In this document: positions 1 through 34,289 of the stretch, in pieces
How positions within the stretch are numbered: the stretch's first letter is position 1
Layout: the number at the start of each line of letters is the position of its first letter
NCBI GenBank assembly: GCA_024644085.1
Contig: JAHELS010000036.1
Location: forward strand, 1-37,878
Source: Rhodopirellula sp.
GTDB lineage: Bacteria; Planctomycetota; Planctomycetia; Pirellulales; Pirellulaceae
DNA length: 37,878 nucleotides
Direction: 5' to 3'
Notes under the pieces: generated by a model
Database searches by the model: none
What the model was told of the DNA's origin: nothing
What the model saw: the letters and a program-made list of their open reading frames with translations, nothing else
Made by a program: the position numbers and the translations under genes

Positions 1-234
1 CAGGTGATCCCGGGCGACAAGATGCGTGAAGATGTGACGCGATGCCTCCGAGCCGCGATTGTCGGTACGTTCGTTCTGCCACCGCTGATCAGTTTCTACT
101 GTATCTATCTGCTGCTGACTTTGAGTCCCGATGCGTACCGCGTCCGATCTTTGCGGCGACGAATCATTTTTTCGTGGGTCGTCACTATGGTGGCAATCCC
201 GTTGTGGCTGGTGCTCTATCACGAGATGATCTGA
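1..234 (+). CDS. small membrane protein, 5' end possibly outside window
   Basis: The reading frame is open from the first base. The first possible start inside the window is GTG at 4, giving 76 residues, but no ribosome binding site can be judged, so the gene may begin upstream. The protein has two hydrophobic stretches, about residues 17-41 (from IVGTFVLPP to LLLTL) and 54-75 (SWVVTMVAIPLWLVLYH), separated by an arginine-rich loop (RSLRRR), so it looks like a two-helix inner-membrane protein. I do not recognise the family. It converges on the patatin gene, with 24 bases between the two stops. The clear hydrophobic pattern supports real coding, but the short length keeps confidence moderate. 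Confidence 0.5.
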   Translation, partial: QVIPGDKMREDVTRCLRAAIVGTFVLPPLISFYCIYLLLTLSPDAYRVRSLRRRIIFSWVVTMVAIPLWLVLYHEMI

Positions 235-258
235 GCGCCATCGTGGCTGTCGTGCGGA

Positions 259-1203: not shown

Positions 1204-1287
1204 CCACACTCTCCAAACATCATCTTGTTGCGTGGCGGCAATGATTGAAAACGGCGTCTCCTTTGCTGTTGACGCGATTCACAGGGG

Positions 1288-3321: not shown

Positions 3322-3386
3322 GTGATGATCTCCTTTGATGTCCCTGCTGTTCTTCCATTGTTAATGCTCTGGCGGCCCGAACGCAT

Positions 3387-5588: not shown

Positions 5589-5592
5589 CGCG

Positions 5593-6882
5593 TTATTCCT
5601 TTTCAGTTTCGACAACCATCGCAAAGCCCTGTCCGCCGCCGACGCACAAAGTCGCAAGGCCACGGCGTTTCCCCGCCGCTTTGAGCGCCCGCAGCAGCGT
5701 CAGGACCAAACGGGTGCCGGTTGTGCCCACGGGATGCCCCAGAGCAATGGCACCGCCGTGAACGTTCAATCGATCTGGAGGGATCTCGCCGACCGCGGAG
5801 GACATCCCCAGTTCCTTTTCCGCAAACTCGTTCGAGGCGAAGGCCTTTTCGCAGGCGATCACCTGGGCCGCGAAGGCTTCGTTGATCTCGATCAAATCGA
5901 AATCGCTGATCGAAAGCCCGGTTTGTTTCAGCAGCTTGGCGGTTGCGTAAACCGGTCCGAGGCCCATCCGCGAGGGCGCACAACCGGCGATCGCACTGGC
6001 GGTGATGTACCCCAGAGGCGGCGAATTGAAACGACCAACGTCATCGGGCGAGGCCAACACGAGCGCCGCGGCTCCATCGGTCAGCGGGCAACTGTTTCCG
6101 GCGGTAACGGTCCCGTCGGAATCGAAGATCGGCCGAAGCTTTGCCAAGGCCTCCATCGATTGGCCGTAACGGATGCCATTGTCCTTTTCGACCTTGCCTC
6201 CGCGGGCGTCGACATTGACGATTTCGCCCGAGAGGAAGCACTCGGTTTGGGCAGCTTCGGCTTTGTGGTGGCTTTCCATCGCAAAACGGTCCTGCTGTTC
6301 GCGCGTGATCGCAAATTCGTCGGCGAGCACCTCCGCAGTCTGGCCCATGTTCAAACCGGAAACCGGATCGGTCAGACCCAATTCGATCCCGATCACCGGC
6401 TTGAAATGACGAGGGCGGAACGAAGCAAGCGTTTTCAGTTTTTGCATCATCGTTTTCGAACGAGCCAGGGCCAGCCAGCGGCGGGTGGCTTCGGGACCGA
6501 CGAGCATTGGAATGTTCGACATCGATTCAGTGCCGCCGACGATGGCGACTTTGGCACGTCCCTGATTGATCGCCTGCCAACCGCCGAGGATCGACTCCAT
6601 ACCGGAAGCACAATTGCGATTGACCGTGTGGGCGATCCGGTCGATCGGCAAATCCGCTTTGAGCGCGATCACCCTGGCAACGTTGGCGGCATCGGGTGGA
6701 CCGGCAACGTTGCCCATCACCACCTCGTCGATATCGTTTGCATTGAGACCGCTGCGGCGCAACGCGTCCAGCAGTGCGATCCGTCCAAGTTCCACGGCTG
6801 AAACGTCACGGAGATCCGTGAACGCTTTTGCAAACGGCGTCCTCGCACCGGATACCACCGCGATGGGTTGTGAATTGTTCAT
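5593..6882 (-). CDS. fadI: acetyl-CoA C-acyltransferase (3-ketoacyl-CoA thiolase)
   Basis: Thiolytic cleavage of 3-ketoacyl-CoA, last step of the beta-oxidation cycle, and expected partner of the downstream hydratase/dehydrogenase in a trifunctional complex. The active-site cysteine is Cys91 in NRNCASGMES. The C-terminal half carries NEAFAAQ, NVHGGAIALGHPVGTTG with the catalytic His, and LCVGGGQG with the second Cys. The 429-residue length fits FadI/FadA-type thiolases. The start ATG shares one base with the TGA stop of the acyl-CoA synthetase gene (TGATG at 6880-6884), indicating coupled translation. An acetoacetyl-CoA thiolase role cannot be excluded by motifs alone, but the operon context argues for beta-oxidation. 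Confidence 0.95.
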   Translation of the reverse strand: MNNSQPIAVVSGARTPFAKAFTDLRDVSAVELGRIALLDALRRSGLNANDIDEVVMGNVAGPPDAANVARVIALKADLPIDRIAHTVNRNCASGMESILGGWQAINQGRAKVAIVGGTESMSNIPMLVGPEATRRWLALARSKTMMQKLKTLASFRPRHFKPVIGIELGLTDPVSGLNMGQTAEVLADEFAITREQQDRFAMESHHKAEAAQTECFLSGEIVNVDARGGKVEKDNGIRYGQSMEALAKLRPIFDSDGTVTAGNSCPLTDGAAALVLASPDDVGRFNSPPLGYITASAIAGCAPSRMGLGPVYATAKLLKQTGLSISDFDLIEINEAFAAQVIACEKAFASNEFAEKELGMSSAVGEIPPDRLNVHGGAIALGHPVGTTGTRLVLTLLRALKAAGKRRGLATLCVGGGQGFAMVVETEKE

Positions 6883-8660
6883 CAGTTCGCCTCCATTGTT
6901 GCATCATCGGTAGAGATCTCCGCGGCGTTGGCCTCGCGTAATTCGCGGCGAATCACTTTGCCGAGGAAGTTTCGCGGCAGATCGCCAATGCACCGCTCGA
7001 AAATCCGCGGTTGTTTGTGTTTGGAAAGGTGTTCGTTGCAATATTCGTGCAGACGTTTTTCGTCCCAGGGAACGCCGGGTTTCATGACCACGTGAGCCTT
7101 GACGATCTCGCCTCTCTTTTCATCGGGATGCCCGACGACGGCTGCGTCCGCAACACCTTCAGCTTCGCGCAGAACCGCTTCGACTTCGCTTGGATAAACG
7201 TTGTAACCCGATGTGATGATCAAGTCCTTTTTGCGACCGACGATGCGGTAGTAACCGTCGGGTTCCTCCACCGCCAGGTCACCGGTGTGAAGCCAGCCCA
7301 TCCGAATCGCCTGGCTGGTCGCCTGGGGATCATTCCAATATCCGAGCATGACTTGCGGACCCCGAATCGTCAGTTCGCCGACCTCGCCATCGCGAACCGC
7401 CGTTACACCATCGGCGTTGTCGACGATCTTGCACTGAGTTTCGGGAAGCGGCAGACCGATCGTGCCGTAGCGAGGCTCCTGGTAGAGGTGACCGACGTGA
7501 GTCACCGGCGAGGTTTCGCTCAGGCCATAGCCCTCGACAACCAATGCCCCGGTGTGCCGGGCAAACTCGCTGCCGACCGCTTCCTCAAGCGGCGCTCCAC
7601 CCGAGATGACCCAACGAAGTCCGGTGATCTTGGGGCGGTGGGAACGGAAACGCTCGTTCATCGCCACCAGCATTGCCGGCACAGCGTGAAATACCGAAGG
7701 TTGGTGTTGCTCGAGCAAACGAATGACTTGTCGCGTGTTGAACCGATGATGAAGAATCAGCGTCGCACCCATCGCGGCACCGCCCATGACCGTTGCCGAC
7801 ATTCCATAGCTGTGGAAAAACGGAAGTACGGCCAACATTGATTGCTCGCCGAACGTGCGTTCGGTCCATTCGTATTGCTGCCAGGCGTTGGCCACCATGT
7901 TGGTGTGGCTGAGAGTGACCGCCTTGGGTGAACCCGTGGTTCCACCCGTGGGCAGAATGTAGGCAGGATCACGCGCCGGCTTGATCGAAATTGGTTGCCA
8001 GCAGCGATCCGTTTTGTTGAATTCGTCCCAGAACCATCGGCAACGTTCGGTCGTCGGCAACGTCCAGTGTCCGGTACGGCTGCGCCGAGCCCACAAGTAA
8101 CCGATCTGGTACAGCGATGGCAAATGCTCGCGAATCGACACCATCAACGATTGCACGTCGGTGTTGTCGTCGGTGTTGACCATGTGCGACAACATGTCGA
8201 GACAAACGACGAAGTGACAGTTGGTCTTCTTCAGCAGTGACTGGACTTCTGCGGCAACCATCAGGGGGCTGATGGCAATCGCCACGCCGCCTGCTCGCCA
8301 GATCGCATTGGCCGCGATGATGTATTCAGGCACGTTGGGCAGCAGGATGCCGACGCGGTCGCCCGGACGCACGCCGAGCCTTTGAAGCATCGCCGCGGCC
8401 CGAACCGAATCTCGGTTCAGCTCCGCGTAACTCCAACGGCGATCACCGTAAATTAACGCCGTGCGGTCGGGGAGCTGCTCCCCAGCATGCTGGAGCAGGG
8501 CAAACGCCGGGACGTCATGGTAAGAGGTGATTCCCTGCGGCGCCGTGGCGTCCTTTGCCGCTTCGTTGACCTCTCCTTTGGAGCCAGACTTCGAATCGGA
8601 ACCGGCATCGACCGACTTGTCCGGGGGTCGATTGTTTTGTCCATCGAGCAGAAAACCCAT
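6882..8660 (-). CDS. fadD: long-chain acyl-CoA synthetase (AMP-forming)
   Basis: Activates free fatty acids to acyl-CoA through an acyl-adenylate. It has the ANL-superfamily motifs: the P-loop-like PTGGTTGSPKAV, GYGLSETSPVTHVG, the hinge-region GWLHTGDLAVEEPDGYYRIV with GRKKDLII, and the C-terminal lysine motif PRNFLGKVIRREL. It has 592 residues from ATG at 8660, chosen because a strong GGGAGG site (8667-8672) lies six bases upstream; the frame is open to 8690. The first 45 residues are a polar, low-complexity leader before the usual N-terminal domain. This is the first gene of the five-gene leftward operon. Other acyl- or aryl-CoA ligases share these motifs, so the substrate is assigned from the neighbours. 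Confidence 0.92.
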   Translation of the reverse strand: MGFLLDGQNNRPPDKSVDAGSDSKSGSKGEVNEAAKDATAPQGITSYHDVPAFALLQHAGEQLPDRTALIYGDRRWSYAELNRDSVRAAAMLQRLGVRPGDRVGILLPNVPEYIIAANAIWRAGGVAIAISPLMVAAEVQSLLKKTNCHFVVCLDMLSHMVNTDDNTDVQSLMVSIREHLPSLYQIGYLWARRSRTGHWTLPTTERCRWFWDEFNKTDRCWQPISIKPARDPAYILPTGGTTGSPKAVTLSHTNMVANAWQQYEWTERTFGEQSMLAVLPFFHSYGMSATVMGGAAMGATLILHHRFNTRQVIRLLEQHQPSVFHAVPAMLVAMNERFRSHRPKITGLRWVISGGAPLEEAVGSEFARHTGALVVEGYGLSETSPVTHVGHLYQEPRYGTIGLPLPETQCKIVDNADGVTAVRDGEVGELTIRGPQVMLGYWNDPQATSQAIRMGWLHTGDLAVEEPDGYYRIVGRKKDLIITSGYNVYPSEVEAVLREAEGVADAAVVGHPDEKRGEIVKAHVVMKPGVPWDEKRLHEYCNEHLSKHKQPRIFERCIGDLPRNFLGKVIRRELREANAAEISTDDATMEAN

Positions 8661-8666
8661 CGTGGT

Positions 8667-8672
8667 CCTCCC
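8667..8672 (-). promoter_or_regulatory. strong Shine-Dalgarno site for the acyl-CoA synthetase gene
   Basis: GGGAGG on the minus strand, six bases before the ATG at 8660. It decides between this start and the upstream in-frame codon at 8690. Confidence 0.75.
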
Positions 8673-8925
8673 AACACCGAAGTAATCCATCCTTAGGTGA
8701 TCGCGGTCTCACTGCTTCATCAGTGAAAAATCCCGCGTCCCTGATTCAATCGGCGAACCAGGCGGCTTTGGGATGCCAGATTGCCGACGTGGGCTGTCGG
8801 CTCGAGCCAGCCAATGACTGTCTATGGAAAAGGAAACATGGTCCCCGGGCCTGGAACCCAAGCCGGGTACACAGGAAGAGAGCGGAGAACCGAGCCGAAA
8901 TTCGCTCCCTCACCGCGTGCAGACA

Positions 8926-8955
8926 ATTCTACGTCGAGAACTCCCAAAGGGTCAA
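8926..8955 (-). promoter_or_regulatory. sigma70-like promoter for the beta-oxidation operon
   Basis: On the minus strand, TTGACC (8950-8955) and TAGAAT (8926-8931) each match five of six consensus positions and are 18 bases apart. Transcription would begin near 8919, giving a leader of about 260 bases before the acyl-CoA synthetase start. The surrounding 8940-9000 stretch is clearly more AT-rich than the coding DNA. The rest of 8661-9088 holds no gene that I can support. Confidence 0.5.
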
Positions 8956-9021
8956 CGAATTTCCCTTAAAATTCCCTAAAGTGGTTTTATCTCTCGTTAA
9001 GCCGGTTTGGTCATTTGGGCA

Positions 9022-9039
9022 TTGTGAGGAAAATCACAA
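9022..9039. promoter_or_regulatory. CRP/FNR-family-like operator palindrome
   Basis: TTGTGA-N6-TCACAA, a perfect 18-base inverted repeat containing the textbook CRP half-sites TGTGA and TCACA with the normal six-base spacer. It lies between the dprA stop and the putative fad-operon promoter, centred about 111 bases upstream of the predicted start of transcription. It is not followed by a T-run on either strand, so an intrinsic terminator is unlikely. The regulator is unknown. Confidence 0.5.
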
Positions 9040-9088
9040 GACGCTTTGAGTCGCGTGATTTCCTTTCCAGCGTATCGGCGGGGCGTGG

Positions 9089-10264
9089 TCAAATTCGCGA
9101 GACGTACTGGCCACTGAGTCGCCGCACCAGGCGGCGCATCTCGAGAACGCTGATCACCGCGATGACTCGCTGCGCGGGTAATTCGCTCTTTCGAATCACT
9201 TCGTCGACCAGCGTGCTGGTCGAGTCGATTGCGTCGAGCACTTTGCGTTCAACTTCGTTCAGCGTCAACTCGGTTCCATTGCGCACTTCGCGACCCTCTT
9301 GCGTCTGGACGGGCTCGCGAACAGGTCCCAATTCTTCGAGAATGTCGTCGACGGTTTGCACAAGTTTAGCGCCGTCGCGGATCAATTGATTGCAGCCGCG
9401 TGAGGCGCGGCTCGTGATCGGTCCGGGCACCGCCAGGACTTCGCGGTTCTGCTCCGATGCGAGTCGTGCCGTGATCAACGCCCCACTGCGGTCGGGCGCT
9501 TCGACGACGAGAGTTGCGAGGGACAACCCTGAAATCAGTCGATTCCTTTGCGGGAACATCCCGCCGCGCGGCTTGGCCAGTGGGGCATATTCGCTGATGA
9601 CGGCGCCGTCGGCCGCGATTGCTTTGGCTAACCCCTCGTGCTCGATCGGATACATCTGCCCGAGCCCTCCACCGAGGACTGCGATCGTCCGGCCGCCCCC
9701 ATCGAGTGCCCCTTCGTGTGCAGCGGCATCGATTCCGCGTGCCAATCCGCTGACGACCGTCACGCCGGCCTTCGCCAGCGCGTAGGCAAACCGTTCGGCT
9801 TGCTTGAGTCCGTACACCGTTGCGTGCCGCGTGCCGACGATCGCCACGGCGATCTCGTCGTCGGCCACAACCTCGCCGCGAGCAAATAAGACCGGCGGTG
9901 CATCCGGCAAATCATTCAGCATCCGCGGATAGGCATCGCTCTCTCGGCAAACGATTGACGTTTCGTGCTCCCGGCACCATCGCACGATCGATTCAGCGTC
10001 GACGTGGTGCGACGCAGTGCGAATGGTATGGACCAATTTCGGGCCGATTCCGCGAACGGACGCCAATTCCGGGCCGGACGCCGAAAGCACCGCGCGACAG
10101 TCTCCGAATCGCTCGAGCAGGGAGGCGAGGGAGCGTGGGCCGATCCCCGGTAACATCGCCAATTTCAATGCATCAAGCGTCGTCCCGGGGATTTCACCCG
10201 TCGTCGCGGGAATTTCCGATTCGGCTGTGTGATCCGAAGAATGGCCGCTCACGTTGTATGCCAT
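9089..10264 (-). CDS. dprA: DNA-processing protein A (DprA/Smf)
   Basis: Single-stranded-DNA-binding protein that in transformable bacteria protects incoming DNA and loads RecA. The 391 residues show three parts. An N-terminal helix-hairpin-helix region runs over about 30-85 (LPGIGPRSLASLLERFG and VRGIGPKLV). A Rossmann-like domain follows with VGTRHATVYG, VSGLARGIDAAAH, the glycine-rich IAVLGGGL, and MFPQRNRLISGLS. A C-terminal winged-helix-like segment covers about 325-385, ending LEMRRLVRRLSG. The start is ATG at 10264, with no clear ribosome binding site. It is transcribed away from lepB and stands alone, with no topA or smg next to it. Competence itself cannot be inferred because dprA is widely conserved in non-competent bacteria. 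Confidence 0.95.
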   Translation of the reverse strand: MAYNVSGHSSDHTAESEIPATTGEIPGTTLDALKLAMLPGIGPRSLASLLERFGDCRAVLSASGPELASVRGIGPKLVHTIRTASHHVDAESIVRWCREHETSIVCRESDAYPRMLNDLPDAPPVLFARGEVVADDEIAVAIVGTRHATVYGLKQAERFAYALAKAGVTVVSGLARGIDAAAHEGALDGGGRTIAVLGGGLGQMYPIEHEGLAKAIAADGAVISEYAPLAKPRGGMFPQRNRLISGLSLATLVVEAPDRSGALITARLASEQNREVLAVPGPITSRASRGCNQLIRDGAKLVQTVDDILEELGPVREPVQTQEGREVRNGTELTLNEVERKVLDAIDSTSTLVDEVIRKSELPAQRVIAVISVLEMRRLVRRLSGQYVSRI

Positions 10265-15699: not shown

Positions 15700-17016
15700 T
15701 CAGCTACGCTGTTCGATTGGGACGAAGTCACGTTCGTTGCACCCGGTGTACACCTGTCGCGGTCGATTGATGCGTGTCGCCGGGTTCGCGTGCATTTCCC
15801 GCCAATGTGCAATCCATCCCGGCAACCTGCCAATCGCGAACAGCACGGTAAACATTTGGATCGGGATTCCCAGTGCGCGGTAGATCACACCTGAGTAGAA
15901 GTCGACGTTGGGATAGAGTTTTCGCTCGATGAAGTATTCGTCTTTCAGCGCGACCTCTTCGAGTTTTTGTGCAACTTCGAATAGCGGATCGTCGAGATCC
16001 AGCTTGGCCAGCAGCTTGTCGCAACTGGCACGAATGATGGTGGCACGAGGGTCGAAGTTCTTGTAGACGCGATGTCCGAAGCCCATCAGGCGGAAATTGT
16101 TCTCCTTGTCCTTGGCCATGTCAACGTACTTTTGAACATTGCCACCGTCGGATGCGATCTTCTCGAGCATGTTCACGCAGGCTTCGTTGGCACCTCCGTG
16201 CAGCGGTCCCCAGAGGGCACCGATACCGGCCGAGATCGAAGCAAACAGGTTCGCATTGCTGCTGCCGACCATCCGAACGGTCGACGTGCTGCAGTTCTGT
16301 TCATGATCCGCATGCACGATCAACAACAAATTGAGTGCTTCTGCGAAGTCGGGATCGACCAGGTAATCGTGCGCCGGAGTGGCGAACATCATGTGCAGAA
16401 AATTCTCACAATAGCTCAGTTCATTGTTCGGATAGATGAAGGGTTGTCCCATCGATTTCTTGTAACTGTACGCCGCGATGGTCGGCAATTTCGCAAGCAA
16501 TCGATCGATTGAGATCTCGACCTGACCGGTATCGTTAACGTCCATCGAGTCCTGGTAAAAAGTCGACAGCGCGCCGACAACGCTGCTGAGAATGGCCATC
16601 GGGTGCGCGTCGCGGGGGAATCCGTTGTAGAACGACCGCATGTCTTCGTGGATCATCGTGTGTTCACGAATTCCCTGGCGGAATGCCGCTGCGCGTTCCG
16701 CATTGGGCAACTCGCCGTAAATCAACAGGTAGGCAGTTTCGATAAAGTCGCTCTTTGCCGCCAACTGTTCGATGGGGTAGCCGCGGTAACGCAAGATCCC
16801 TTTCTCACCGTCAAGAAACGTGATCGCGCTGCGCGTGCTGCCGGTATTTACGAACCCTTCGTCGAGGGTGATCAGGCCGGTCTTGCTTCGCAGTTGGCTG
16901 ATGTCGATCGCGCGTTCTCCCTCACTCCCTTCGACCACGGACAGCTCGAGTTCCTGGTCACCGTAGATCAGTTTCGCGGTATCGGTTTCTTGCAATTCCA
17001 GGTTGGCAGTGCTCAT
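15700..17016 (-). CDS. gltA: citrate synthase
   Basis: Condenses acetyl-CoA and oxaloacetate in the TCA cycle, and is the natural sink for acetyl-CoA from the beta-oxidation operon. The 438 residues include the N-terminal beta domain of type II (hexameric) enzymes (AKLIYGDQELELSVVEGS). The catalytic residues sit in HEQNCSTSTVR, WGPLHGGANEAC (His) and GFGHRVYKNFDPRA (His), and NVDFYSGV near the C-terminus supplies the aspartate. ATG at 17016 gives the standard type II N-terminus; the frame is open to 17103. The 231 bases upstream hold a 7-base inverted repeat (CAGCTGC/GCAGCTG) that overlaps the leader, but no convincing promoter. Confidence 0.96.
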   Translation of the reverse strand: MSTANLELQETDTAKLIYGDQELELSVVEGSEGERAIDISQLRSKTGLITLDEGFVNTGSTRSAITFLDGEKGILRYRGYPIEQLAAKSDFIETAYLLIYGELPNAERAAAFRQGIREHTMIHEDMRSFYNGFPRDAHPMAILSSVVGALSTFYQDSMDVNDTGQVEISIDRLLAKLPTIAAYSYKKSMGQPFIYPNNELSYCENFLHMMFATPAHDYLVDPDFAEALNLLLIVHADHEQNCSTSTVRMVGSSNANLFASISAGIGALWGPLHGGANEACVNMLEKIASDGGNVQKYVDMAKDKENNFRLMGFGHRVYKNFDPRATIIRASCDKLLAKLDLDDPLFEVAQKLEEVALKDEYFIERKLYPNVDFYSGVIYRALGIPIQMFTVLFAIGRLPGWIAHWREMHANPATRINRPRQVYTGCNERDFVPIEQRS

Positions 17017-17247
17017 CAGCGATTCCACAGAGAAAACGTACAGAGATTCAGGACAGCTGCGACCGCGGGCGGGTTGCAGCTGGGACATACAAAAGAGAAG
17101 CAACAGCGCAGTTTAGCGGTGCCGATGGCGCGGGACAATCAGACGTCCATGGCGGGCGGTAGAACGCCGCAAAGTCCCGCTCCAGCAAGAAGCGGAGCCG
17201 ACTGAAACTGCCTCACCCGCCCGCCATTGTTCTCCCAGCCGGCGAAC

Positions 17248-18537
17248 CTACCCAACTTTCTGGTCCTGTTGACGGGAACGCCGAATGCGCATCGATTCAA
17301 TCTTTCGATTGCTTGCCTTGAGAATCTCAAATTTGGCATCGCCGATCGTCATTTGCTGTCCCGCCTCCGGGATAGCGCCTATGTGGTAGAGCACGTATCC
17401 GGCGACTGTCTCGTAGTCATCGCTCTCGGGAAGATCCCAAGCGGTAGTCTCGTTCAAATCATCCATCATTACTCGGCCGTCGACTTCGACCGTTTCATCA
17501 TCGATGATCTCAATCCCGAATTCCTCATCTTCATCCGATTCATCAACGATTTCGCCAACGATCTCTTCCAAAGCATCTTCGATGGTGACAACGCCGGCGG
17601 TCTGTTGAAACTCGTCAATCACGATCGCCATATGGCTGCGGCTGTGCAGGAATTCTCGAAGGATCAACTCGACACTTCGGTCGACCGGAACGGTCCAGGG
17701 GCGGCGAATGATTTCGGTAAGCGGCTTGTCCGGGGCACTGTCGCTCGAGAGAAACGGCAACAGGTCTTTGACATAGAGAATGCCAATGACGTGATCCAAC
17801 GTTCCTTCGAAAACCGGAAAACGTGTTCGTCCAGCGTCGACAACCGTTTCGAGGATCTGGTCCCAGCTCCAGGAAATATCAATCGCGTTGACGTCACTCC
17901 TCGGCGTCATGATGTGCCCGACGGTATCCTCGTGCAGCGTCATCACGCCCTGGATCATCTCACGTACACCAGGACCGAAGTATCCTTCCCGTGTTCCCGC
18001 GGTCACGATCGTGCGAATCTCGTCTTCCAACTGTTCTTCGTCTTCGTCTTCGCTTTCTTTCGCTCCGGTTAATCGGCGGGTGACAATCTCGACGAACTCG
18101 CCGGGCGCGGACAGCGGGCTCATCAAGATCGACAACGAACGCCAAAACGGCCACGTGTGATAAAGGACCTGGGTGGACGCGAAACGCGTGACAGCGGCGG
18201 GAAGCCAGACGTGGATCATCATCATCAGCCCGCCGGCACAGACACCCCACGTGGTCAATCGCCAGGGCGACAATTCAGAGTCGCCGATGAAAATTGCGGC
18301 GGTCCCGGCAATCAAAAACAATACCGTGCCAATCATCCGCAGGTACTCGCTGCCGCGGATTGCGGCGTCCTGGTGATCGAGCACGGCGCCGAACCGATCT
18401 CGGTTCCTCTTCAACCGGCAATAGGCTTCCAACGATCGGCCCGCAAAACGGTCGAGTAGTTCACCGCCGAGCCCGCCCACGCTGCTGAGCAAAAATCCGA
18501 GAAACGAGAGTCCGAACCAGATTGACGTGTCGTTCAA
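17248..18537 (-). CDS. CNNM/CBS-domain protein (CorC/HlyC family, YbeX/PaeA-like)
   Basis: Membrane protein of the hemolysin C / CNNM family, implicated in Mg2+/Co2+ or polyamine efflux. The N-terminal 150 residues form the DUF21 region with about four hydrophobic segments (near 5-25, 66-85, 95-118 and 125-142). An acidic linker follows (ESEDEDEEQLEDE), then a CBS pair at about 205-325 (GHIMTPRSDVNAIDISWSWD, ILYVKDLLPF, AIVIDEFQQTAGVVTIEDALEEIVGEI) and a CorC-type C-terminal domain from 345. It starts with TTG at 18537, supported by GGGAGG at 18544-18549. That start shares bases with the TGA stop of ybeY. The position after ybeY matches the ybeZ-ybeY-ybeX order of many bacteria. Confidence 0.9.
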   Translation of the reverse strand: MNDTSIWFGLSFLGFLLSSVGGLGGELLDRFAGRSLEAYCRLKRNRDRFGAVLDHQDAAIRGSEYLRMIGTVLFLIAGTAAIFIGDSELSPWRLTTWGVCAGGLMMMIHVWLPAAVTRFASTQVLYHTWPFWRSLSILMSPLSAPGEFVEIVTRRLTGAKESEDEDEEQLEDEIRTIVTAGTREGYFGPGVREMIQGVMTLHEDTVGHIMTPRSDVNAIDISWSWDQILETVVDAGRTRFPVFEGTLDHVIGILYVKDLLPFLSSDSAPDKPLTEIIRRPWTVPVDRSVELILREFLHSRSHMAIVIDEFQQTAGVVTIEDALEEIVGEIVDESDEDEEFGIEIIDDETVEVDGRVMMDDLNETTAWDLPESDDYETVAGYVLYHIGAIPEAGQQMTIGDAKFEILKASNRKIESMRIRRSRQQDQKVG

Positions 18538-19142
18538 GAGCTTCCTCCCTTGAACGATACTTCCGCACGATCGGCTGCGAACCGAGCGACTCGGTCGACT
18601 CCCAAACCGGTCAACACGATTCGCTCGGCATCACGCATTGCGTCGCGCTCCTCGTCGCTTTGGTCGTCCATGCCGGCGATATGCAGGGTCCCGTGGACGA
18701 TGTATAGCAGCAACTCGTTGGCGGCCGACCAGCCCAATTCTTTGGCACAGCGAACGGCTGTTTCGCAGCTGGCTACCAACTCGCCTTCGATCCAGGGACT
18801 CTCGCAGCGATAGGAAAAGCTGATCACATCGGTGGGATAGTCATGTCCGAGATGAGCGAGATTGATTCGATGGATCTCAGCGTCACTGGTAATGCGAATC
18901 CCGATCACGCCGCGGTCGAATCCGCAGAATTCCGCTGCCGCCAAGACGGCATCTCTCGCCGAGTTCTCGGAAAGTGGCGACACGGCGCCGTCGTCGACCA
19001 CCCAGTCAAGCTGCAACTGTGTCGGTTGTGCGTCGAACTCGCCGGTGGCCGAAGTACGCCTGGAGCGACCGACGGCCTCAGGCTGATTGTTGTCCCGGGT
19101 ATTTGACACGTGCGTGGTAGATCGCGGTGAGAGATTTGACAA
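18534..19142 (-). CDS. ybeY: endoribonuclease YbeY (16S rRNA maturation)
   Basis: Metal-dependent RNase in 16S rRNA 3'-end processing and ribosome quality control. Family landmarks are the strand GIRITSDAEIHRINLAHLG, the motif YPTDVISFSY (usually TDVLSFP), and the metal site HGTLHIAGMDDQSDEE. The third metal ligand, normally His in HGxxHLxGYxH, is Asp here; an aspartate could still bind Zn2+. The start is unclear. TTG at 19142 gives 202 residues and overlaps the 7TM-HD gene by 65 bases, and GTG at 19109 is an alternative; neither has a good ribosome binding site. The first 40 residues are polar and poorly conserved-looking. It stands between pgpH-like and CorC-like genes. Confidence 0.9.
   Translation of the reverse strand: MSNLSPRSTTHVSNTRDNNQPEAVGRSRRTSATGEFDAQPTQLQLDWVVDDGAVSPLSENSARDAVLAAAEFCGFDRGVIGIRITSDAEIHRINLAHLGHDYPTDVISFSYRCESPWIEGELVASCETAVRCAKELGWSAANELLLYIVHGTLHIAGMDDQSDEERDAMRDAERIVLTGLGVDRVARFAADRAEVSFKGGSS
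18544..18549 (-). promoter_or_regulatory. Shine-Dalgarno site fixing the TTG start of the CNNM/CBS gene
   Basis: GGGAGG lies inside the last codons of ybeY and six bases before TTG 18537. It makes this unusual start codon credible and suggests translation coupled to the end of ybeY. Confidence 0.7.
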
Positions 19143-21450
19143 GGGAGCGACGGATGCGGTCGAGTTGCCGAAACGTCAATCCGCACTCGTCGAATTGACC
19201 GTCGCCCATTTTCTTTTGGGCGATCGAATCGACCAGCCCCTGGATGCGGGCTGGTGTTGGATCGACAAGCGTCCGGCTGGCACTTTCGACCGTATCGGCA
19301 AGCATCATCACAGCAGCTTCGAGCGTTTGAGGCTTTGGACCGGGGTACCGGAAATCCTTATCGCTGACCGTGTCTGCATTCGGGTCGGCTTCGCTGCGAC
19401 GCGCGGCTTCGCGGTAAAAGTATTCAACCAGGGTCGTGCCGTGGTGTTGCAGGATGAAATCGATGATCGGCTCGGGTAAATGATGGCTGCGCGCCAAGTC
19501 GGCGCCGTCTTTGACGTGGGCAATGATCACCAGTGTACTCATCGCCGGCTGCAACGAATCGTGCTGGTTCACCCCTGTGCTTTGGTTTTCGATGAAGTAT
19601 TCCGGCTTGAACATCTTGCCGATGTCGTGGAAATAGGCTCCGACACGAACCAGCAAACCGTTGGCACCGATCTCGTCCGCAGCCGCCTCCGCGATCGAAG
19701 CGACGTTGATTGAGTGATTGTAAGTGCCCGGTGCACGTTGGGCCAATCGTCGCAGCAACGGATGGCTGGCGTCGCCGAGTTCGAGCAAACTCAGGTCCGT
19801 CTGGACACCAAACGCTTTTTCGACCAGCGGCAGCAAGCCGGTCATCGCGGTCGCCGAGACGAGAATACAGAACCCCGCCCAAAACGAATTTTTGAACAGC
19901 CCAAGCAAGACCATTTCAAACATTGGGCCGCGGTAAAGCGTTTCCAGGTCGTTGCTGAAATCGCCACTGAAAAGCGTCTGGCTGGTCACGATCCCCACGC
20001 CGACCACGGTCATGATTGTGATCACCGCCGAAACACCGCCGACATACAACAAGTGGGTGCGGCTACGTATGCGTCCCAAAAGCAGGATGCAACTGGTGCA
20101 CGCCGCCGCCATCATCACCAACGACGCCAGACCCGCACCGAGAAACAGCGTCAGGCTAAGACTTGCCGCCGCCATCAACAACAATCCCAGCTCGCGCCCG
20201 TAGACCACCGCGCAGATGATGGAAGCCAACACCAACGGTATCAGCTCTCCACGCCATTGGTCGCGCGAGGCGAAGTATCCCAGCGCTATTGTCACCACCA
20301 TCACGGTCAACAATTTCGCTAGTTTCCATCGGTCACGCACGAGAGAGCGATCGTCGACGAAGAAGATGTACGATCCACACAGTAAATAGAGCGCGCAAAT
20401 CATTCCCGCGTAGGCGCCGATGCGGGCGGCCTTATCGACGAAATGCATCTTGGCCGAGAGTTCTTCCCACTCGCGTCTCAGCAAGGCGAGTTCCTCGTCG
20501 GACAATGGCGTACCCGCCTCGGCCAGCTTCGAGTTTCCAGTCCGGTACGTCGTCATCACCGGCGGTACCGAAGCGGCCGCCTGGCTCCGCGCCTGTTCGC
20601 TCAGCTCGTCGTCGTATTGCAGTGTTTCGTATTCCGGCAGCCGCTCGACGATCCAGTCACTGATCATTCCCGCGACCAGCTGGCTTTCATCGCCTTTGAA
20701 CTTCGTGCGGAACTGTTCTTTCAATCTTCTTGAAAACTCGACGCTCGCTTCGGCAATCCGCGCGTCGCTGATTTCGACGAACTCAACGTCATCCGGTCGC
20801 CCGACCGGGTAAACGCGAATCCGTTCCTGGCTGCCCTGATCGGGCGAGTGCTGCAGCGCATGGATAAAGCCGGAGCGGTAATTCTCCCGCATCGCAATGT
20901 CGATCGCTTCGTCTAGTTTCTTGAGTTTCGGTTCCGCCGCGACATCTTCGGCGAGCACGGTCTTGAGCATCGCGAACCGCTTGGCCGGGGTATCCTCCGG
21001 TTCGGTCTCGCTGCCCTCGTAGAATTGTGAAAAGGCCGCTTTTTCCTTCTCGCTCAGCTGGCCAAACGAAGGGGCGCCGAGAATCAGAAACAACTGGTCG
21101 CGCAGCGCCGCCCGCAATTGATCCAGCGGCTGTGTCCGGTTGCTGTAGAACGCGAGTTGCTCACGGCGTTTTCGATCGCGCAGCGATTTTGTTTCCGTTT
21201 CATTGGGGACCTCGAAGGTCACTCGCGTGATCAGATCGCGGGCCGGGATTTGACCGCGGCGGTGAGCAAACGAGGGCTTCCAGGTCTCGCACAGCGCGAG
21301 CAGCGCGATCGCGGCAATCACCGCCATCGCGATGCGGATCATGAAATCCGCCTTGTCGCTGTCCTGCCACCACTGGACCAGCCGTGGTTTCTGCAGACCG
21401 AGGGAATCGATTCGCTCGGGACGCGTCCGTTGTTTGCTTGCACCGCTCAT
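19078..21450 (-). CDS. 7TM receptor with cytoplasmic HD phosphohydrolase (PgpH family)
   Basis: Polytopic membrane protein with a C-terminal HDIG phosphodiesterase domain. In Firmicutes PgpH degrades cyclic di-AMP. After one N-terminal helix (about residues 40-58) comes a large, charged extracytoplasmic region (about 65-340, 7TMR-HDED-like). A block of about seven hydrophobic helices follows at about 345-560, then the HD domain from about 595 with YFHDIGKMFKPEYF, SLQPAMSTLVIIAHVKDG and IIDFILQHHGTTLVEYFY. Length is about 790 residues, normal for the family. ATG at 21450 is preferred over TTG at 21459; neither has a clear ribosome binding site. The phoH-pgpH-ybeY neighbourhood is conserved in many bacteria. 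The nucleotide substrate is inferred from the family only. Confidence 0.92.
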   Translation of the reverse strand: MSGASKQRTRPERIDSLGLQKPRLVQWWQDSDKADFMIRIAMAVIAAIALLALCETWKPSFAHRRGQIPARDLITRVTFEVPNETETKSLRDRKRREQLAFYSNRTQPLDQLRAALRDQLFLILGAPSFGQLSEKEKAAFSQFYEGSETEPEDTPAKRFAMLKTVLAEDVAAEPKLKKLDEAIDIAMRENYRSGFIHALQHSPDQGSQERIRVYPVGRPDDVEFVEISDARIAEASVEFSRRLKEQFRTKFKGDESQLVAGMISDWIVERLPEYETLQYDDELSEQARSQAAASVPPVMTTYRTGNSKLAEAGTPLSDEELALLRREWEELSAKMHFVDKAARIGAYAGMICALYLLCGSYIFFVDDRSLVRDRWKLAKLLTVMVVTIALGYFASRDQWRGELIPLVLASIICAVVYGRELGLLLMAAASLSLTLFLGAGLASLVMMAAACTSCILLLGRIRSRTHLLYVGGVSAVITIMTVVGVGIVTSQTLFSGDFSNDLETLYRGPMFEMVLLGLFKNSFWAGFCILVSATAMTGLLPLVEKAFGVQTDLSLLELGDASHPLLRRLAQRAPGTYNHSINVASIAEAAADEIGANGLLVRVGAYFHDIGKMFKPEYFIENQSTGVNQHDSLQPAMSTLVIIAHVKDGADLARSHHLPEPIIDFILQHHGTTLVEYFYREAARRSEADPNADTVSDKDFRYPGPKPQTLEAAVMMLADTVESASRTLVDPTPARIQGLVDSIAQKKMGDGQFDECGLTFRQLDRIRRSLVKSLTAIYHARVKYPGQQSA

Positions 21451-29337: not shown

Positions 29338-29385
29338 TCGCAGACGTTTCCATCCTTGCTCTTTCCCTCAGCCCCCGATCGATTC

Positions 29386-31161
29386 GTGCTACGCACTCAC
29401 ACCTGCGGTCAACTCCGCAAAGCAGACGTTGGAAGTGAAGTCACCCTTTGCGGTTGGGTGGAAAGCAAACGTGACCACGGGGGTGCTGTCTTCATCGATC
29501 TGCGCGACCGTTACGGGCTGACCCAGGTCGTGGTGGGACCGCCCGAAGCAAATTCAGCCTTGATCGACGAAGCGGGCCGCGTAGCGGCCGAAAGCGTGAT
29601 TCTGATTCGCGGCAAGGTGACCGATCGTCTCGAGGGAAAAATCAACAAGAAACTCGCAACCGGTGAAATCGAAGTCCGCAGCGATCATTTTGAGATTCTG
29701 AACTCGTGCGAGACGCCGCCGTTCACACCGAGCCAGAGCGATATGCCCGGCGAGGACCTGCGTTTGAAGTACCGGTTTCTTGACCTTCGCCGCAGCGACA
29801 TGCAGCGCGCGATGGTGCTGCGCAGCGAGATCGTCAAGACGATGCGAGACTACTTTGCCGAACACGATTTTATCGATGTGGAAACACCGATTCTCGGCCG
29901 CAGCACGCCCGAGGGGGCGCGAGATTATCTCGTCCCCAGCCGTGTTCATCCCGCGAACTTTTATGCTCTGCCCCAATCCCCCCAGCTATACAAACAAATC
30001 TTGATGGTTGCGGGGTTTGATCGATACGTCCAGGTTGCCAAGTGTTTTCGTGACGAGGATCTGCGCGCCGACCGGCAACCCGAATTCACCCAGCTCGATC
30101 TCGAAATGTCATTTGTCGATTCCGACGACATCATGGGATTGATTGACGGCTTGGTGGCGCGGACCGCAAAGGAGGTGCTCGGCAAGGACATCACCACGCC
30201 GCTGCCGCGGATGACCTACGGCGAGGCAATGCGGCGGTTCGGCAGCGACGCGCCTGATTTGCGATTTGCGATGGAGATCGTCGATATCACGTCCGTCGCC
30301 AAGAAGACAGAATTTCGAGTCTTTCGCGGAACCGCGGACTCGGGCGGATTCGTTCGCGGTATTCCCGTCAAAGGAGCGGCAACCAAATACTCGCGCCGGC
30401 AAATCGACGAGCTCACCGAGTACGTCAAGGGAGATTTCGGCGCCAAAGGACTCGCCTGGTTTCGCGTCGAAGATGACGGAAGTTTGTGGAGTCCGATCAG
30501 CAAGAACTTTGACGATGCTCACCTCGCGGAAATCAAAGAGCTGATGTCAGGCGAACCGGGCGACTTGCTGATGTTCCTCGCTGATACTTGGGATGTAACT
30601 TGCAAGGGGCTCGCGGGGTTGCGAAAACGCCTCGCCGGAGAACTTGGTTTGATTGATCCCAAAGAACTCAATTGCAGCTGGGTCACCGAGTTCCCGATGT
30701 TCGAGCGGGATGAAGAGTCGGGTCGCTGGAATGCGATGCACCATCCCTTTACCGCGCCGCTTACCGATGACTTGCCACTGCTCGGCGAAGATCCCCAGGA
30801 TTGCCGTGCCCAGGCCTACGACTTGGTTATCAATGGCAGCGAAGCTGGCGGCGGGACGATTCGTATTCATGATTCAAAGACCCAGTCACAAGTCTTCGAG
30901 CTGCTTGGCATTGACGAAGCAACGGCCGAGGATCGATTCGGGTTCTTGCTCAACGCGTTGAAATTCGGTGCGCCGCCCCACGGCGGAATCGCATTGGGTG
31001 TTGATCGCTGGGTGATGTTGTTCGCTGGGCTGGATAACATTCGCGAAGTGATCGCGTTTCCAAAAACGCAAAAGGCGGCGGACCTGATGACCGAAGCTCC
31101 GGGACCGGTCGACAAAGCACAGCTGGCCGAGTTGCATCTGCGGACAGCGAAAGTGAAATAA
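29386..31161 (+). CDS. aspS: aspartyl-tRNA synthetase
   Basis: Class II synthetase that charges tRNA-Asp; it may also charge tRNA-Asn in bacteria lacking AsnRS, which cannot be judged here. The GTG at 29386 gives the typical start LRTHTCGQLRKADVG and 591 residues, the normal bacterial size. The ORF is open to a TTG at 29356. The N-terminal OB-fold includes LCGWVESKRDHGGAVFIDLRD in two blocks. The class II motif 2 is KCFRDEDLRADRQPEFTQLD, the bacterial GAD domain lies in the middle, and motif 3 is GGIALGVDRWVML. No clear ribosome binding site precedes the start. Confidence 0.96.
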   Translation: MLRTHTCGQLRKADVGSEVTLCGWVESKRDHGGAVFIDLRDRYGLTQVVVGPPEANSALIDEAGRVAAESVILIRGKVTDRLEGKINKKLATGEIEVRSDHFEILNSCETPPFTPSQSDMPGEDLRLKYRFLDLRRSDMQRAMVLRSEIVKTMRDYFAEHDFIDVETPILGRSTPEGARDYLVPSRVHPANFYALPQSPQLYKQILMVAGFDRYVQVAKCFRDEDLRADRQPEFTQLDLEMSFVDSDDIMGLIDGLVARTAKEVLGKDITTPLPRMTYGEAMRRFGSDAPDLRFAMEIVDITSVAKKTEFRVFRGTADSGGFVRGIPVKGAATKYSRRQIDELTEYVKGDFGAKGLAWFRVEDDGSLWSPISKNFDDAHLAEIKELMSGEPGDLLMFLADTWDVTCKGLAGLRKRLAGELGLIDPKELNCSWVTEFPMFERDEESGRWNAMHHPFTAPLTDDLPLLGEDPQDCRAQAYDLVINGSEAGGGTIRIHDSKTQSQVFELLGIDEATAEDRFGFLLNALKFGAPPHGGIALGVDRWVMLFAGLDNIREVIAFPKTQKAADLMTEAPGPVDKAQLAELHLRTAKVK

Positions 31162-31592: not shown

Positions 31593-31717
31593 TTGCTGAG
31601 GTTTCGGTTCGTGTGTCTGGACCACTTTCCCGAGAAATTACCTTGCCGAATCGGCGGCTCGAGGCGATCATTCAATGGATTCGTTTTACCCATCTCTCAT
31701 TGCTAAGGTCACCATCG

Positions 31718-33142
31718 ATGGCAATTCCTCCCTGGTCGATCGAGCTTTTGCGGCGCGGATTGAACGACGTTGCCCGCAAGGCACGAGAACCTGAGACGAT
31801 TGAAAAGCTCCGTACCCAGGCGAGTGAGATACTGCATGACTTGCCGCAGACCGCGGCGCGCGGCATTGACGCCGTGATCCGCAGTGCGGAAGCCGGCAAG
31901 AAAAGTGTCGAAAGGTGGAGCCGGAAACACACAACCATCGCCATCGAGATGCTCAACGCCTCCGGCGTCTTGCTGACCGAATCGGGATCGGGTGTGCCGA
32001 TGCCGGACAAGGCGATCGAAGTCGGCGGCGAAATGTTCGCCGGCGATGCTGTGCGGGGGCCGGCAATGGCCCAGCGATTGTCGAAACGACTGCAGCGTTT
32101 GTTGCCCGCAGGGGGAGGCTACGACATTGCAGTCACGTCGAGTTTCTCATCCGCGCTTTCCGCGTTTTCGCTGTTAGTCGAGGAGCGTCAACTCGTTGTG
32201 CATCGGCATCACGCAGTGCGCATGCCGGGCGGATTGCCGCTTCCCGAGGCGGTGGGTGCATTGTTGCCCGTGATCCAGGAAGTCGGTGGGTCCGACGGAA
32301 TCGACCCCCGGGACTTTGACGGCCTTGAAAGCTTTTGCGCGATCCTTGCCGATGACGGACGGCGGCCGGTCGAATTGATGGATCTGTCAACGCACAATGC
32401 GCTCCAGGCGGTCGTCTTGCCGGTGGCCACGCTCGAAACCACCGCACACGCTCAAATTCCTTCAGCCGAAGCGATGCTGACCGCCGGTGCGGACTTCGTG
32501 ATCATGGCGGGGGACGGCATTTGCGGAGGACCACCGTGTGGGATCATGATCGGCCGCGCAGAAGAGATCCAGCGGATTCGGCGATCGGTCGCCTGGCCCG
32601 TGTGGGCGGCCAGCGAAGCGGTCGAAGCGATGTTGATGGTCACGCTTGAAACCGCAGCCTCGCACCCGGACCACGTGCCCGTTCGACAATTATTGGCGAC
32701 GAGCGAAGAAAACTTGCGCGGTCGCGCCGAGCGGTTGGCGACGCGTATCAGCGGATGCGATCGAATCGCGAGCTGCCAAATCACGGCTGAGGATGCTCGA
32801 TTGACCCAGGGCGGACGGTGGAGATTTCCCTCGCGTCAGATTCGTGTCCGCCACAAGTCGCAGTCGGCCGACGATTGGGCAAGTGATCTTCACGAGGACT
32901 ATCCAGCCGTTCTTGCGAAAGCCGATGGCGAAGAATTGCGAATCGATCTTCGTTGGATAGCCGCCGCCGCCGACGGGAAACTTGCTGAAGCGCTCGGCAC
33001 GCCCGAAGAAAGCGGCACGCCCGAAGAAAGCGGCACGCCCGAAGAAAGCGGTTCACCGTACGAACGCGGTACCCCCGAGGGACGCACAGAACCATCTGGT
33101 AGCCACAGCGAAGCGAGCGACACGGAGCCCAATCCGTCGTAG
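31718..33142 (+). CDS. SelA-like protein lacking the PLP lysine
   Basis: This resembles L-seryl-tRNA(Sec) selenium transferase (SelA), a PLP fold-type I enzyme. NASGVLLTESGSGVPMPDKA stands where SelA has its NATGVVLHTNLGRAPL block. FVIMAGDGICGGPPCGIMIG stands where SelA has SGDKLLGGPQAGIIVG. The lysine that binds PLP is Gly267 here, so normal PLP chemistry is not expected. ATG at 31718 has AAGG about ten bases upstream; the frame is open to 31613. The C-terminal tail of about 45 residues is low complexity, with three GTPEES repeats. From memory, planctomycetes are annotated with 'selenium transferase-related' proteins; function unknown. A primase-HAD gene follows after 43 bases. No other Sec gene is in the window. 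Confidence 0.8.
   Translation: MAIPPWSIELLRRGLNDVARKAREPETIEKLRTQASEILHDLPQTAARGIDAVIRSAEAGKKSVERWSRKHTTIAIEMLNASGVLLTESGSGVPMPDKAIEVGGEMFAGDAVRGPAMAQRLSKRLQRLLPAGGGYDIAVTSSFSSALSAFSLLVEERQLVVHRHHAVRMPGGLPLPEAVGALLPVIQEVGGSDGIDPRDFDGLESFCAILADDGRRPVELMDLSTHNALQAVVLPVATLETTAHAQIPSAEAMLTAGADFVIMAGDGICGGPPCGIMIGRAEEIQRIRRSVAWPVWAASEAVEAMLMVTLETAASHPDHVPVRQLLATSEENLRGRAERLATRISGCDRIASCQITAEDARLTQGGRWRFPSRQIRVRHKSQSADDWASDLHEDYPAVLAKADGEELRIDLRWIAAAADGKLAEALGTPEESGTPEESGTPEESGSPYERGTPEGRTEPSGSHSEASDTEPNPS
32996..33049 (+). repeat. 18-base tandem repeat, three copies, inside the SelA-like gene
   Basis: GGCACGCCCGAAGAAAGC is repeated exactly three times (32996-33013, 33014-33031, 33032-33049). In the SelA-like frame it encodes Gly-Thr-Pro-Glu-Glu-Ser. 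In the next frame, which runs without a stop into the primase gene, it encodes the basic unit Ala-Arg-Pro-Lys-Lys-Ala. Slippage could change copy number without breaking either frame. Confidence 0.95.
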
Positions 33143-33185: not shown

Positions 33186-34289
33186 GTGAGCCAGGCCTAT
33201 CTCGATCAAATGCACTCCGAGTGGCGCGATCGCGCCCCCGAGTTGGCCCATTGGGTACTCCAACATCTGGTCAACCGCACCGATGTCTGGGGGAGGTATC
33301 TGCCGAAGCGGAACCGCGATGCCCAGGCGGACAAGAAGAGCGGATTCAAAGGAAACGCCATCACGGCGCCGTTCCGCGACGAGCGAGGCAAGGTTTTCTT
33401 GAATGCCGCGTCATTGGAAAAGCACTTCAAAGCAACCGACGGCGGCATGCTCGGTATTCACAGCGCCACCAGCGATGGTTCGTCGCGATGGTTCGCCATC
33501 GATATCGACCTGCACGATGAGCAAGACCTATCGGTCACGCCGGAGGGCAATTTTGTCGCCGCGCGGGAATGGTACAGCGGACTTCAGAAACTCGGGTTCG
33601 ATCCGCTGCTCTTCGATTCCAATGGCAGAGGCGGATTTCATCTGTGGGTCGTGCTTGCCGAGCCGATGGACTCGCGCAGCGTTCGTGCCTTCGCCGATCG
33701 GTTGGTCAGTGATTACCGCCGCCGCGGTCTGGACCAGGCACCCGATCTGTTCCCAGGATCGCTGGGATCCAATCATCTCGGTAGCTGGCTTCGCTTGCCC
33801 GGTCGCCACCACACGCATCCTCATTACACGCGCGTGTATAACGACCAGGCGTGGGATGACCGAACGTGGTTGGAAGGACACGACGCCATCGATCGAATTT
33901 TGGCAACGCGACCAGCACCCCCGGCGTTACTCGAAACGCTCGGCATCGATCGCAAGATCAAAACCGTCTGTCTCGACTTTGACGGAGTGATTCATTCCTA
34001 TCGGTCGGGCTGGCAGGGTGCAGGCACGATCCCTGATCCGCCGATCCACGGTGTCAAAGACGCGATCCGACATCTGCGGAAGCGATACCGGATCGTGATC
34101 CACTCATCGCGGAGTGCCACCGAGGAAGGTTGTGACGCGATTCGCCAATGGCTGACCCGCCACGACATCGAGGTCGATGATGTCTGCGCCCACAAGCCTC
34201 CCGCCTTCGTCTATGTCGATGACCGCGCCGTGCGATTCACCGGCGACTGGGAGGAAACGATCGCACACATCAATGATTTCCGCCGTTAG
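33186..34289 (+). CDS. archaeo-eukaryotic-type primase fused to a HAD phosphatase
   Basis: Predicted two-domain DNA-end or primer enzyme of 367 residues from GTG 33186 (AGGG six bases upstream; ATG at 33210 is an alternative). The N-terminal domain (about 25-230) resembles the AEP primase of TOTE-type systems. It has the metal motif FAIDIDLHD with Asp106 and Asp108, GRGGFHLWV with His152 (like the sGxHhW motif of LigD-type polymerases), APDLFP with Asp187, and GSWLRLPGRHH. The C-terminal domain (about 258-365) is a HAD phosphatase: LDFDGV with Asp264/Asp266, IVIHSSR, Lys337 in AHKPP, and YVDDRAV. The frame continues upstream to 32982 through a basic stretch that overlaps the previous gene. 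The roles are inferred: nucleotide addition by the AEP part and end or nucleotide dephosphorylation by the HAD part. No helicase or ligase is adjacent. Confidence 0.8.
   Translation: MSQAYLDQMHSEWRDRAPELAHWVLQHLVNRTDVWGRYLPKRNRDAQADKKSGFKGNAITAPFRDERGKVFLNAASLEKHFKATDGGMLGIHSATSDGSSRWFAIDIDLHDEQDLSVTPEGNFVAAREWYSGLQKLGFDPLLFDSNGRGGFHLWVVLAEPMDSRSVRAFADRLVSDYRRRGLDQAPDLFPGSLGSNHLGSWLRLPGRHHTHPHYTRVYNDQAWDDRTWLEGHDAIDRILATRPAPPALLETLGIDRKIKTVCLDFDGVIHSYRSGWQGAGTIPDPPIHGVKDAIRHLRKRYRIVIHSSRSATEEGCDAIRQWLTRHDIEVDDVCAHKPPAFVYVDDRAVRFTGDWEETIAHINDFRR

Follow-up and report, generated by a model that had tools for sequence, protein, structure and literature searches.

Part of the text of PMC8656161 describes LigD as the combination of a gap-filling polymerase, a phosphoesterase that removes 3'-phosphates and a ligase, recruited to DNA ends by Ku. 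The available part of PMC5663958 describes LigC and Prim-PolC as cooperating in base excision repair. The window analyzed here, a stretch of 37,878 nucleotides from a Rhodopirellula genome (Planctomycetota), contains a gene at 33186..34289 on the plus strand (GTG start) whose 367-residue product, as recognized in the initial annotation, joins an AEP (primase-polymerase) half and a HAD phosphatase half in a single chain with all of the motifs named there. The whole fusion gene was delimited from Pfam, AlphaFold2 and homologues; the reading frame runs open upstream as far as 32982, and the starts of homologues fall near 33186. On the strength of the observed domains, the conservation of catalytic residues in both halves, the linkage of the genes and their co-occurrence, we consider it moderately likely that the fusion serves as polymerase and end-healing subunit in a four-protein DNA break-repair system of the chromosome, made up of two proteins here called S1 and S2, an ATP-dependent DNA ligase and the AEP-HAD fusion.

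The N-terminal half of the fusion (about residues 1-250; 33186..33935, plus strand) matched the Pfam AEP-TOTE model PF22548 over residues 66-221 (E 1.5e-7, 31.7 bits versus a cut-off of 27), and this was the sole AEP model to exceed its cut-off. The matches to DNA_primase_S and to LigD_Prim-Pol (PF21686, 16.1 versus 27.4 bits) were below the Pfam cut-offs, and the ligD_pol model scored 12.3 versus a cut-off of 214.7. Judged by LigD-family domains, the protein is not a LigD, and the ligase is encoded in another gene. The C-terminal half (about residues 258-367; 33957..34286, plus strand) matched HAD_SAK_2 (PF18143) over residues 261-339 just above the cut-off (E 3.2e-6, 28 versus 27.5 bits) and the HAD-IIIA model TIGR01662 below the cut-off (E 0.0016). 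The AlphaFold2 model of the fusion, built on a 44-row alignment, had a pLDDT of 92.3 and a pTM of 0.88. When its N-terminal half was searched against the PDB with Foldseek, the best match was a CRISPR-associated Prim-Pol (CAPP; 7nqf, E 1.9e-9), and the polymerase domain of Mycobacterium tuberculosis LigD (2iru, E 4e-5), the S-2L PrimPol (6zp9, E 2.1e-4) and Prim-PolC (5op0/6sa0, E about 3e-3) were also found. CAPP was likewise picked up by sequence with a seven-sequence profile (E 5.5e-6), and the PADLOC model for CRISPR-associated PrimPol matched the fusion weakly (E 7e-4). For the C-terminal half, Foldseek returned the HAD phosphatase GmhB (3l8e/2gmw, E about 5e-4), phage AfhF (9iqw, E 4e-3) and, weakly, T4 Pnkp (2ia5, E 0.036).

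The catalytic residues of both halves were examined in an alignment of 20 fusion proteins (A8). In the AEP half, D106-x-D108 of IDIDLH (33501..33509, plus strand, as for all motifs given here), metal ligands by homology, was invariant in 20/20 rows, as were H110 and, in the GGFH part (33630..33641) of GGFHLW (residues 149-154), G149, G150 and H152. Mutants in the equivalent DxD of two CAPPs lost activity, according to the available part of PMC8211822. The third acid, D187 of APDLFP (residues 185-190; 33744..33746), was D or E in 19/20 rows, with Q in L031. In the HAD half, motif I (D264-x-D266 in DFDGV, residues 264-268; 33975..33983), which by homology provides the nucleophile and an acid, motif III (K337; 34194..34196) and motif IV (D345-D346; 34218..34223) were invariant in 20/20 rows. 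At motif II, S307 of HSSR (residues 306-309; 34104..34106) was S in 17 rows and T in L050, L055 and L056, and R309 of the same motif was invariant in 20/20. Four additional Acidobacteriota fusions retained the acids, with GGLH replacing GGFH and DLDAV replacing DLDGV in L194. With a Pfam match above the cut-off, an AEP fold and the catalytic motifs, the N-terminal half is a member of the AEP superfamily, and the C-terminal half is, by its HAD fold and its DxD, S/T, K and DD motifs, a HAD phosphatase of predicted activity. The initial annotation had named two findings that would speak against it, an N-terminal half outside the AEP superfamily and a consistent loss of the catalytic aspartates in close homologues; HMMER and fold searches kept the N-terminal half within the superfamily, and the DxD pairs were retained in both halves.

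A full-length fusion was found in 7/396 order genomes, the window's genome included (25/396 had a match somewhere), and the full-length homologues of the six other genomes showed 56-62% identity. Because none of the 21 congeneric genomes examined had the fusion, its distribution is patchy. A scan of genome contigs yielded 77 loci, including more Planctomycetota fusions, and single fusion-bearing MAGs were labeled Anaerolineae (Chloroflexota), Cyanobacteria and Acidobacteriota. The MAG labeled Anaerolineae (L044) has a four-gene operon with a fusion 60% identical to that of the window, by transfer or mis-binning. The fusion frame was broken in L048 and L061, by assembly error or decay (in L061, the adjoining S1 and ligase are open and S2 is also split), and the L051 fusion ends at a contig end, its remainder probably being L054. 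The HAD half also stands alone, chiefly in Firmicutes (29-59% identical) and in phages (32-46%), and a tree of 57 HAD rows did not separate one from two fusion origins (p-AU 0.49).

The nearest AEPs lacking a HAD domain (L003, L011 and L026; 43-44% identical) have a zinc-finger-like C-terminal tail and integrase- or transposase-like neighbors, both judged by eye, and the only Pfam match of L003 was to AEP-TOTE. These relatives, along with top viral fold matches that were phage helicase or primase proteins, would suit a primase serving the replication of a mobile element, one that gained a HAD domain and whose association with a ligase is incidental. We find this hardly credible: when viral contigs were searched with patterns of the AEP part, 0 of 15 pattern matches were confirmed as relatives; plasmids (2 records) and phages (19 records) matched the HAD part only, with no whole fusion; the best 25 of the 131 Pfam families for 55 fusion neighbors included no replication helicase; and the fusion co-occurs strongly with the S1-S2-ligase block described below.

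The neighbors of the fusion in the window are an MFS transporter, a class II tRNA synthetase, a SelA-like gene, two sulfatases and an FHA protein. The SelA-like PLP protein (31613-33142; PF03841, E 1.9e-12, C-terminal part only) lies directly upstream of the fusion and has tandem SGTPEE repeats near its end. The two sulfatases (PF00884; 34293-37298, minus strand) are convergent with the fusion. The class II tRNA synthetase (29356-31161) has a GAD domain, as in AspRS, and a copy named from sequence likeness is found in L031 (4939-6723); in the window it is on the same strand as the fusion with the SelA-like gene between them, in L031 the two are convergent, and the recurrence reflects an ancestral site or chance. 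For other fusions, 55 further neighbors were hand-picked from flank lists (plus 9 proteins in a separate scan), and among the best 25 of their 131 Pfam families none occurred in more than four neighbors (glycosyltransferase 2).

TOTE conflict systems have a linked superfamily II helicase and nuclease. No such partner was present among the seven window neighbors scanned, which sets the locus outside TOTE by this measure, and the 25 of 131 Pfam families listed for the 55 neighbors of other fusions contained no helicase. Since the matching AEP model is itself named AEP-TOTE, the separation from TOTE suggested in the initial annotation rests on partners and not on domain. Both the mobile-element and the TOTE readings were disfavored on partner genes. 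Directly upstream of the L037 fusion lie genes for a PD-(D/E)XK nuclease and a UvrD helicase-nuclease (3-5944, plus strand). UvrD belongs to a different helicase superfamily from the superfamily II of TOTE. We take this pair to be AddAB-like in make-up; AddAB carries out break resection, and this single case fits work at double-strand breaks.

The survey of conservation and neighbors that the initial annotation had called for found the fusion conserved and uncovered a recurrent block of three genes beside several fusions: S1 (~204 amino acids), S2 (~238 amino acids) and an ATP-dependent DNA ligase (~490 amino acids). The minimal stand-alone enzyme first envisaged must therefore be replaced by one gene of a four-gene set. 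Linkage was examined in 30 distinct genomes with S2 (7 from the order, 6 from the phylum, 11 from wider genome contigs and 6 more Acidobacteriota). The ligase followed S2 directly in 30/30 (truncated to a remnant in G553), and S1 preceded S2 on the same strand in 28/30, the exceptions being G045, in which no S1 was found, and G966, in which S1 is inverted and 1.8 kb away. The fusion adjoined the block in nine genomes, and in six of these all four genes are on one strand, in the order S1 > S2 > ligase > AEP-HAD (L044, L056, L195, L196 and L197) or AEP-HAD > S1 > S2 > ligase (L055). The L045 fusion is convergent with the block, the broken L061 fusion is divergent, and L194 has S2 > ligase > AEP-HAD with S1 inverted. 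In the order genomes with both (the window's and five others), fusion and block were on different contigs or, in G247, 68 kb apart. In the window's genome, the fusion is on contig C182 and the block on C385, with S1 at 19361-19975 at the contig end, S2 at 18602-19318 and the ligase at 16887-18605, all on the minus strand; because S1 ends C385, the true distance between fusion and block may differ from what this split suggests. The ligase of this genome, at 7887-9605 (minus strand) of locus L115, has a lysine/alanine-rich tail common to some relatives, not all. In L168 (2404-5532), the block ligase is a 1043-amino-acid protein with a fused C-terminal AAA ATPase, and in L170 (9026-9739, minus strand) S2 is followed by the C-terminal part of a ligase only, either a remnant or a non-catalytic version.

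The ligase is an ATP-dependent DNA ligase by its domains, an OB domain among them, and its motifs: PF01068 (1.2e-12 in L045) and PF04679 (6.6e-12) were both found in the three ligases scanned, and the KxDG, EG and KxK motifs were invariant in 12/12 rows. For the ligase of the window's genome, the nearest NCBIfam model was the LigD ligase domain, far below the cut-off (54.5 versus 227.75 bits). S1 and S2 had no significant family match in Pfam and no significant PDB sequence match, and a profile comparison found them unrelated to each other. No PADLOC model matched the two S1, three S2 and three ligase proteins submitted. S2 and the ligase were unmatched in the plasmid collection and S2 in the phage collection, in keeping with the chromosomal system suggested initially. 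In L167, L169 and L061, the block sits among DUF5682, MoxR-type AAA, WGR-DUF4132, SWIM or DUF5691 genes. The available part of PMC8533742 includes a DUF4132 protein and one that is WGR/MolR-like in its discussion of radiation-response genes in Deinococcus.

This gene company would also accord with RNA repair or nucleic-acid healing in anti-phage conflict, with the HAD half healing cleaved RNA ends and the block serving as effector of a MoxR/DUF5682/WGR-DUF4132 cluster, and so would the match of the HAD half to HAD_SAK_2, a model named from RNA-repair proteins. HAD_SAK itself is said to be defined, in all likelihood, in an RNA-repair survey. We nevertheless regard RNA repair as distinctly improbable. 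The ligase fits the DNA ligase adenylation and C-terminal models, and the RNA_ligase model matched more weakly (0.0044, in one of the three ligases scanned). Further points against it are the PADLOC result for S1, S2 and the ligase, the lack of S2 matches in phages and plasmids, and the ordinary neighbors in the window (MFS transporter, class II tRNA synthetase, sulfatases and FHA protein).

Fusion and block also co-occurred across genomes. In the order sample (396 genomes), six had both the fusion and S2, one had the fusion only, one had S2 only and 388 had neither (Fisher p 9.5e-12, a statistic that ignores species relatedness); the two mismatches, G329 and G342, belong to one genus. S2 was present in 13/16 further fusion genomes versus 0/9 genomes with AEP-only or HAD-only relatives, giving S2 in 19 of the 23 fusion genomes tested. 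The 16 further fusion loci include L048 and L061, with a broken frame, and L051, at a contig end; L111, a short broken AEP piece in a genome lacking S2, was left uncounted, and two duplicates were recognized by contig and position (G520 = G710, L050; G579 = G715, L061). The fusion genomes with no detected S2 (G329, G704, G709 and G712) are all titled as MAGs. In the phylum sample, 7/294 genomes had S2; besides that of the window, G520 had the fusion, G579 a broken fusion and G553 a partial AEP match only, and no fusion was found in G419, G554 and G685 or in 14 genomes of this sample lacking S2. Since S2 genomes with no fusion exist (G342, G419, G553 with its partial AEP match only, G554 and G685), the block can do without AEP-HAD; G1057 and G921 likewise had S2 and no fusion within the 18-kb stretch checked. 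S2 was found in 7/347 Acidobacteriota genomes, and four of the six new ones had a fusion beside S2; having been located through S2, these four loci show linkage, not frequency.

Pairwise distances of fusion and S2 were correlated in a Mantel test (16 genomes; r 0.84, p 0.0001) and in the main clade (13 genomes; r 0.62, p 0.0003), with shared species history remaining in both values. The set comprised 16 of the 19 two-gene genomes, two broken fusions and one split fusion being omitted, and some ligase sequences among these genomes are cut by locus ends. In 11 of the 13 main-clade genomes, fusion and S2 were apart in the stretches examined.

The AlphaFold2 model of S2 was poor (pLDDT 54.9, pTM 0.47). 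All 50 PDB matches to this model in Foldseek at E <= 0.001 were Ku structures or Ku-containing complexes, with bacterial Ku heading the list; Ku was taken as the matched chain in the complexes from titles and lengths, and the superpositions were loose (TM about 0.4, rmsd 8-13). By sequence, S2 profiles compared with 15 Ku proteins of the same order were not significant (P 0.09, 0.37 and 0.21), neither was the comparison of S1 with Ku, and 16 S2 members had no Pfam Ku match and no PDB sequence match. S2 is possibly Ku-like, a strong lead from a model and not a result. At its C-terminal end, S1 has an acidic tail tipped by hydrophobic residues (DFDMI-like), similar in kind to the SSB tail. Canonical Ku (PF02735) was present in 36 of the 396 order genomes and in one of the seven fusion genomes (G247), which was again the single genome with a LigD polymerase domain (PF21686) among eight tested. 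Ku and the LigD polymerase are missing from six of the seven order fusion genomes, the window's among them; fusion and Ku showed no significant exclusion in the order (one genome with both; p 0.49).

The nearest rival to break repair is single-strand gap or excision repair of the mycobacterial LigC/Prim-PolC type, in which the fusion would clean 3' ends at nicks and fill short gaps, the ligase would seal, and S1 and S2 would be adaptors and not an end-bridging Ku. The pairing of polymerase and ligase is alike, Foldseek lists Prim-PolC structures (5op0/6sa0) for the fusion, and the S2 sequence profiles do not support Ku. Set against this is the Foldseek search with the S2 model, which at E <= 0.001 returned nothing other than Ku structures or Ku-containing complexes, and we judge gap repair unlikely. 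A more specific form of the break-repair reading, which we put forward tentatively as somewhat short of probable, is a second, LigD-independent end-joining pathway in which a highly diverged Ku-family S2 has a dedicated partner in S1, whose acidic tail is SSB-like, and works with a ligase belonging to the pathway and with the fusion of polymerase and phosphatase. This pathway would be patchy in Planctomycetota and Acidobacteriota and replace canonical Ku-LigD there.

Since in related bacteria the fusion travels with a ligase and two other proteins, one of which may resemble Ku, it probably belongs to a DNA break-repair pathway, so far undescribed. Each LigD/Ku function has a predicted counterpart in the four-gene set, which suggests a scheme of end binding, healing, fill-in and sealing. 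S2, perhaps with S1, would bind broken DNA ends and recruit the enzymes; the HAD half would take off a phosphate that blocks the end, in all likelihood a 3'-phosphate; gap filling or the supply of missing nucleotides would fall to the AEP half; and the ATP-dependent ligase would seal. The set would in this way cover the polymerase, phosphoesterase and ligase work of LigD by means of parts that are encoded separately and a phosphatase whose fold is unrelated. We infer every one of these biochemical steps, the use of DNA and not RNA as substrate, and the roles of S1 and S2. The proposal in the initial annotation of a polymerase paired with an end-cleaning phosphatase, as in LigD and PNKP, gains support from the domains, the conserved residues and the linkage to a ligase and to S2, possibly a Ku-like protein, as would be expected of a LigD-like role, with the activity itself predicted from sequence; the primer-making role also suggested there received no specific support.

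The open-access literature, as far as its text was available, described neither an AEP-HAD fusion nor the four-gene set; subscription papers were mostly outside the search, and a prior description is possible. The words "phosphatase" and "planctomycet" are absent from the available part of PMC5862659, which treats AEP fusions, and those of PMC10140301, on ligases of Antarctic metagenomes, and PMC7824862, on jumbo phages, contain nothing similar. If the break-repair reading is true, bacteria possess one more set of tools for repairing broken DNA, in which a Ku relative escapes sequence searches and end healing relies on a different phosphatase fold, and there is a hint of how some Planctomycetota that lack Ku and LigD join ends. 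It would also provide four purifiable proteins for reconstitution of end joining and a function for two unannotated families.

Several described systems resemble parts of the set. The Deinococcus radiodurans DRB0098-DRB0100 operon, in the available part of PMC1997131, likewise groups an ATP-dependent ligase with an end-healing enzyme and with a protein of unknown function; however, it has a kinase/HD-phosphatase and a macro-like protein and no AEP. CAPPs (7nqd/7nqf) are the closest solved AEPs by fold and sequence profile, whereas class A CAPPs are CRISPR-associated and have TPR, RT or helicase parts, according to the available part of PMC8211822, and CAPP has no HAD domain. PNKP and HAD-type 3'-phosphatases, with HAD_SAK_2, share the HAD fold and the DxD, S/T, K and DD motifs, T4 Pnkp being a weak fold match, but the fusion has no kinase, and its closest sequence relatives on this side are stand-alone HADs, chiefly of Firmicutes, and of phages. 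The TOTE AEP (PF22548) is alike in that no other AEP model exceeded its cut-off in the fusion; the fusion differs in its HAD domain and, genome-wide, its ligase block, and the window neighbors scanned included neither a helicase nor a nuclease. As far as the source text goes, LigC/Prim-PolC is similar in its separate ATP-dependent ligase and gap-filling AEP polymerase; we know of no HAD fusion and no S1 or S2 in the mycobacterial system. In contrast to LigD, the phosphatase is here a HAD domain in one chain with the polymerase and not a PE domain, and the ligase is a separate gene; in contrast to Ku plus LigD, S1 and S2 match no family, and canonical Ku is missing in 6/7 order fusion genomes. 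With Ku plus LigD end joining, the locus shares an AEP polymerase, a predicted end-healing enzyme and an ATP-dependent DNA ligase as one genetic set, possibly with a Ku-like partner.
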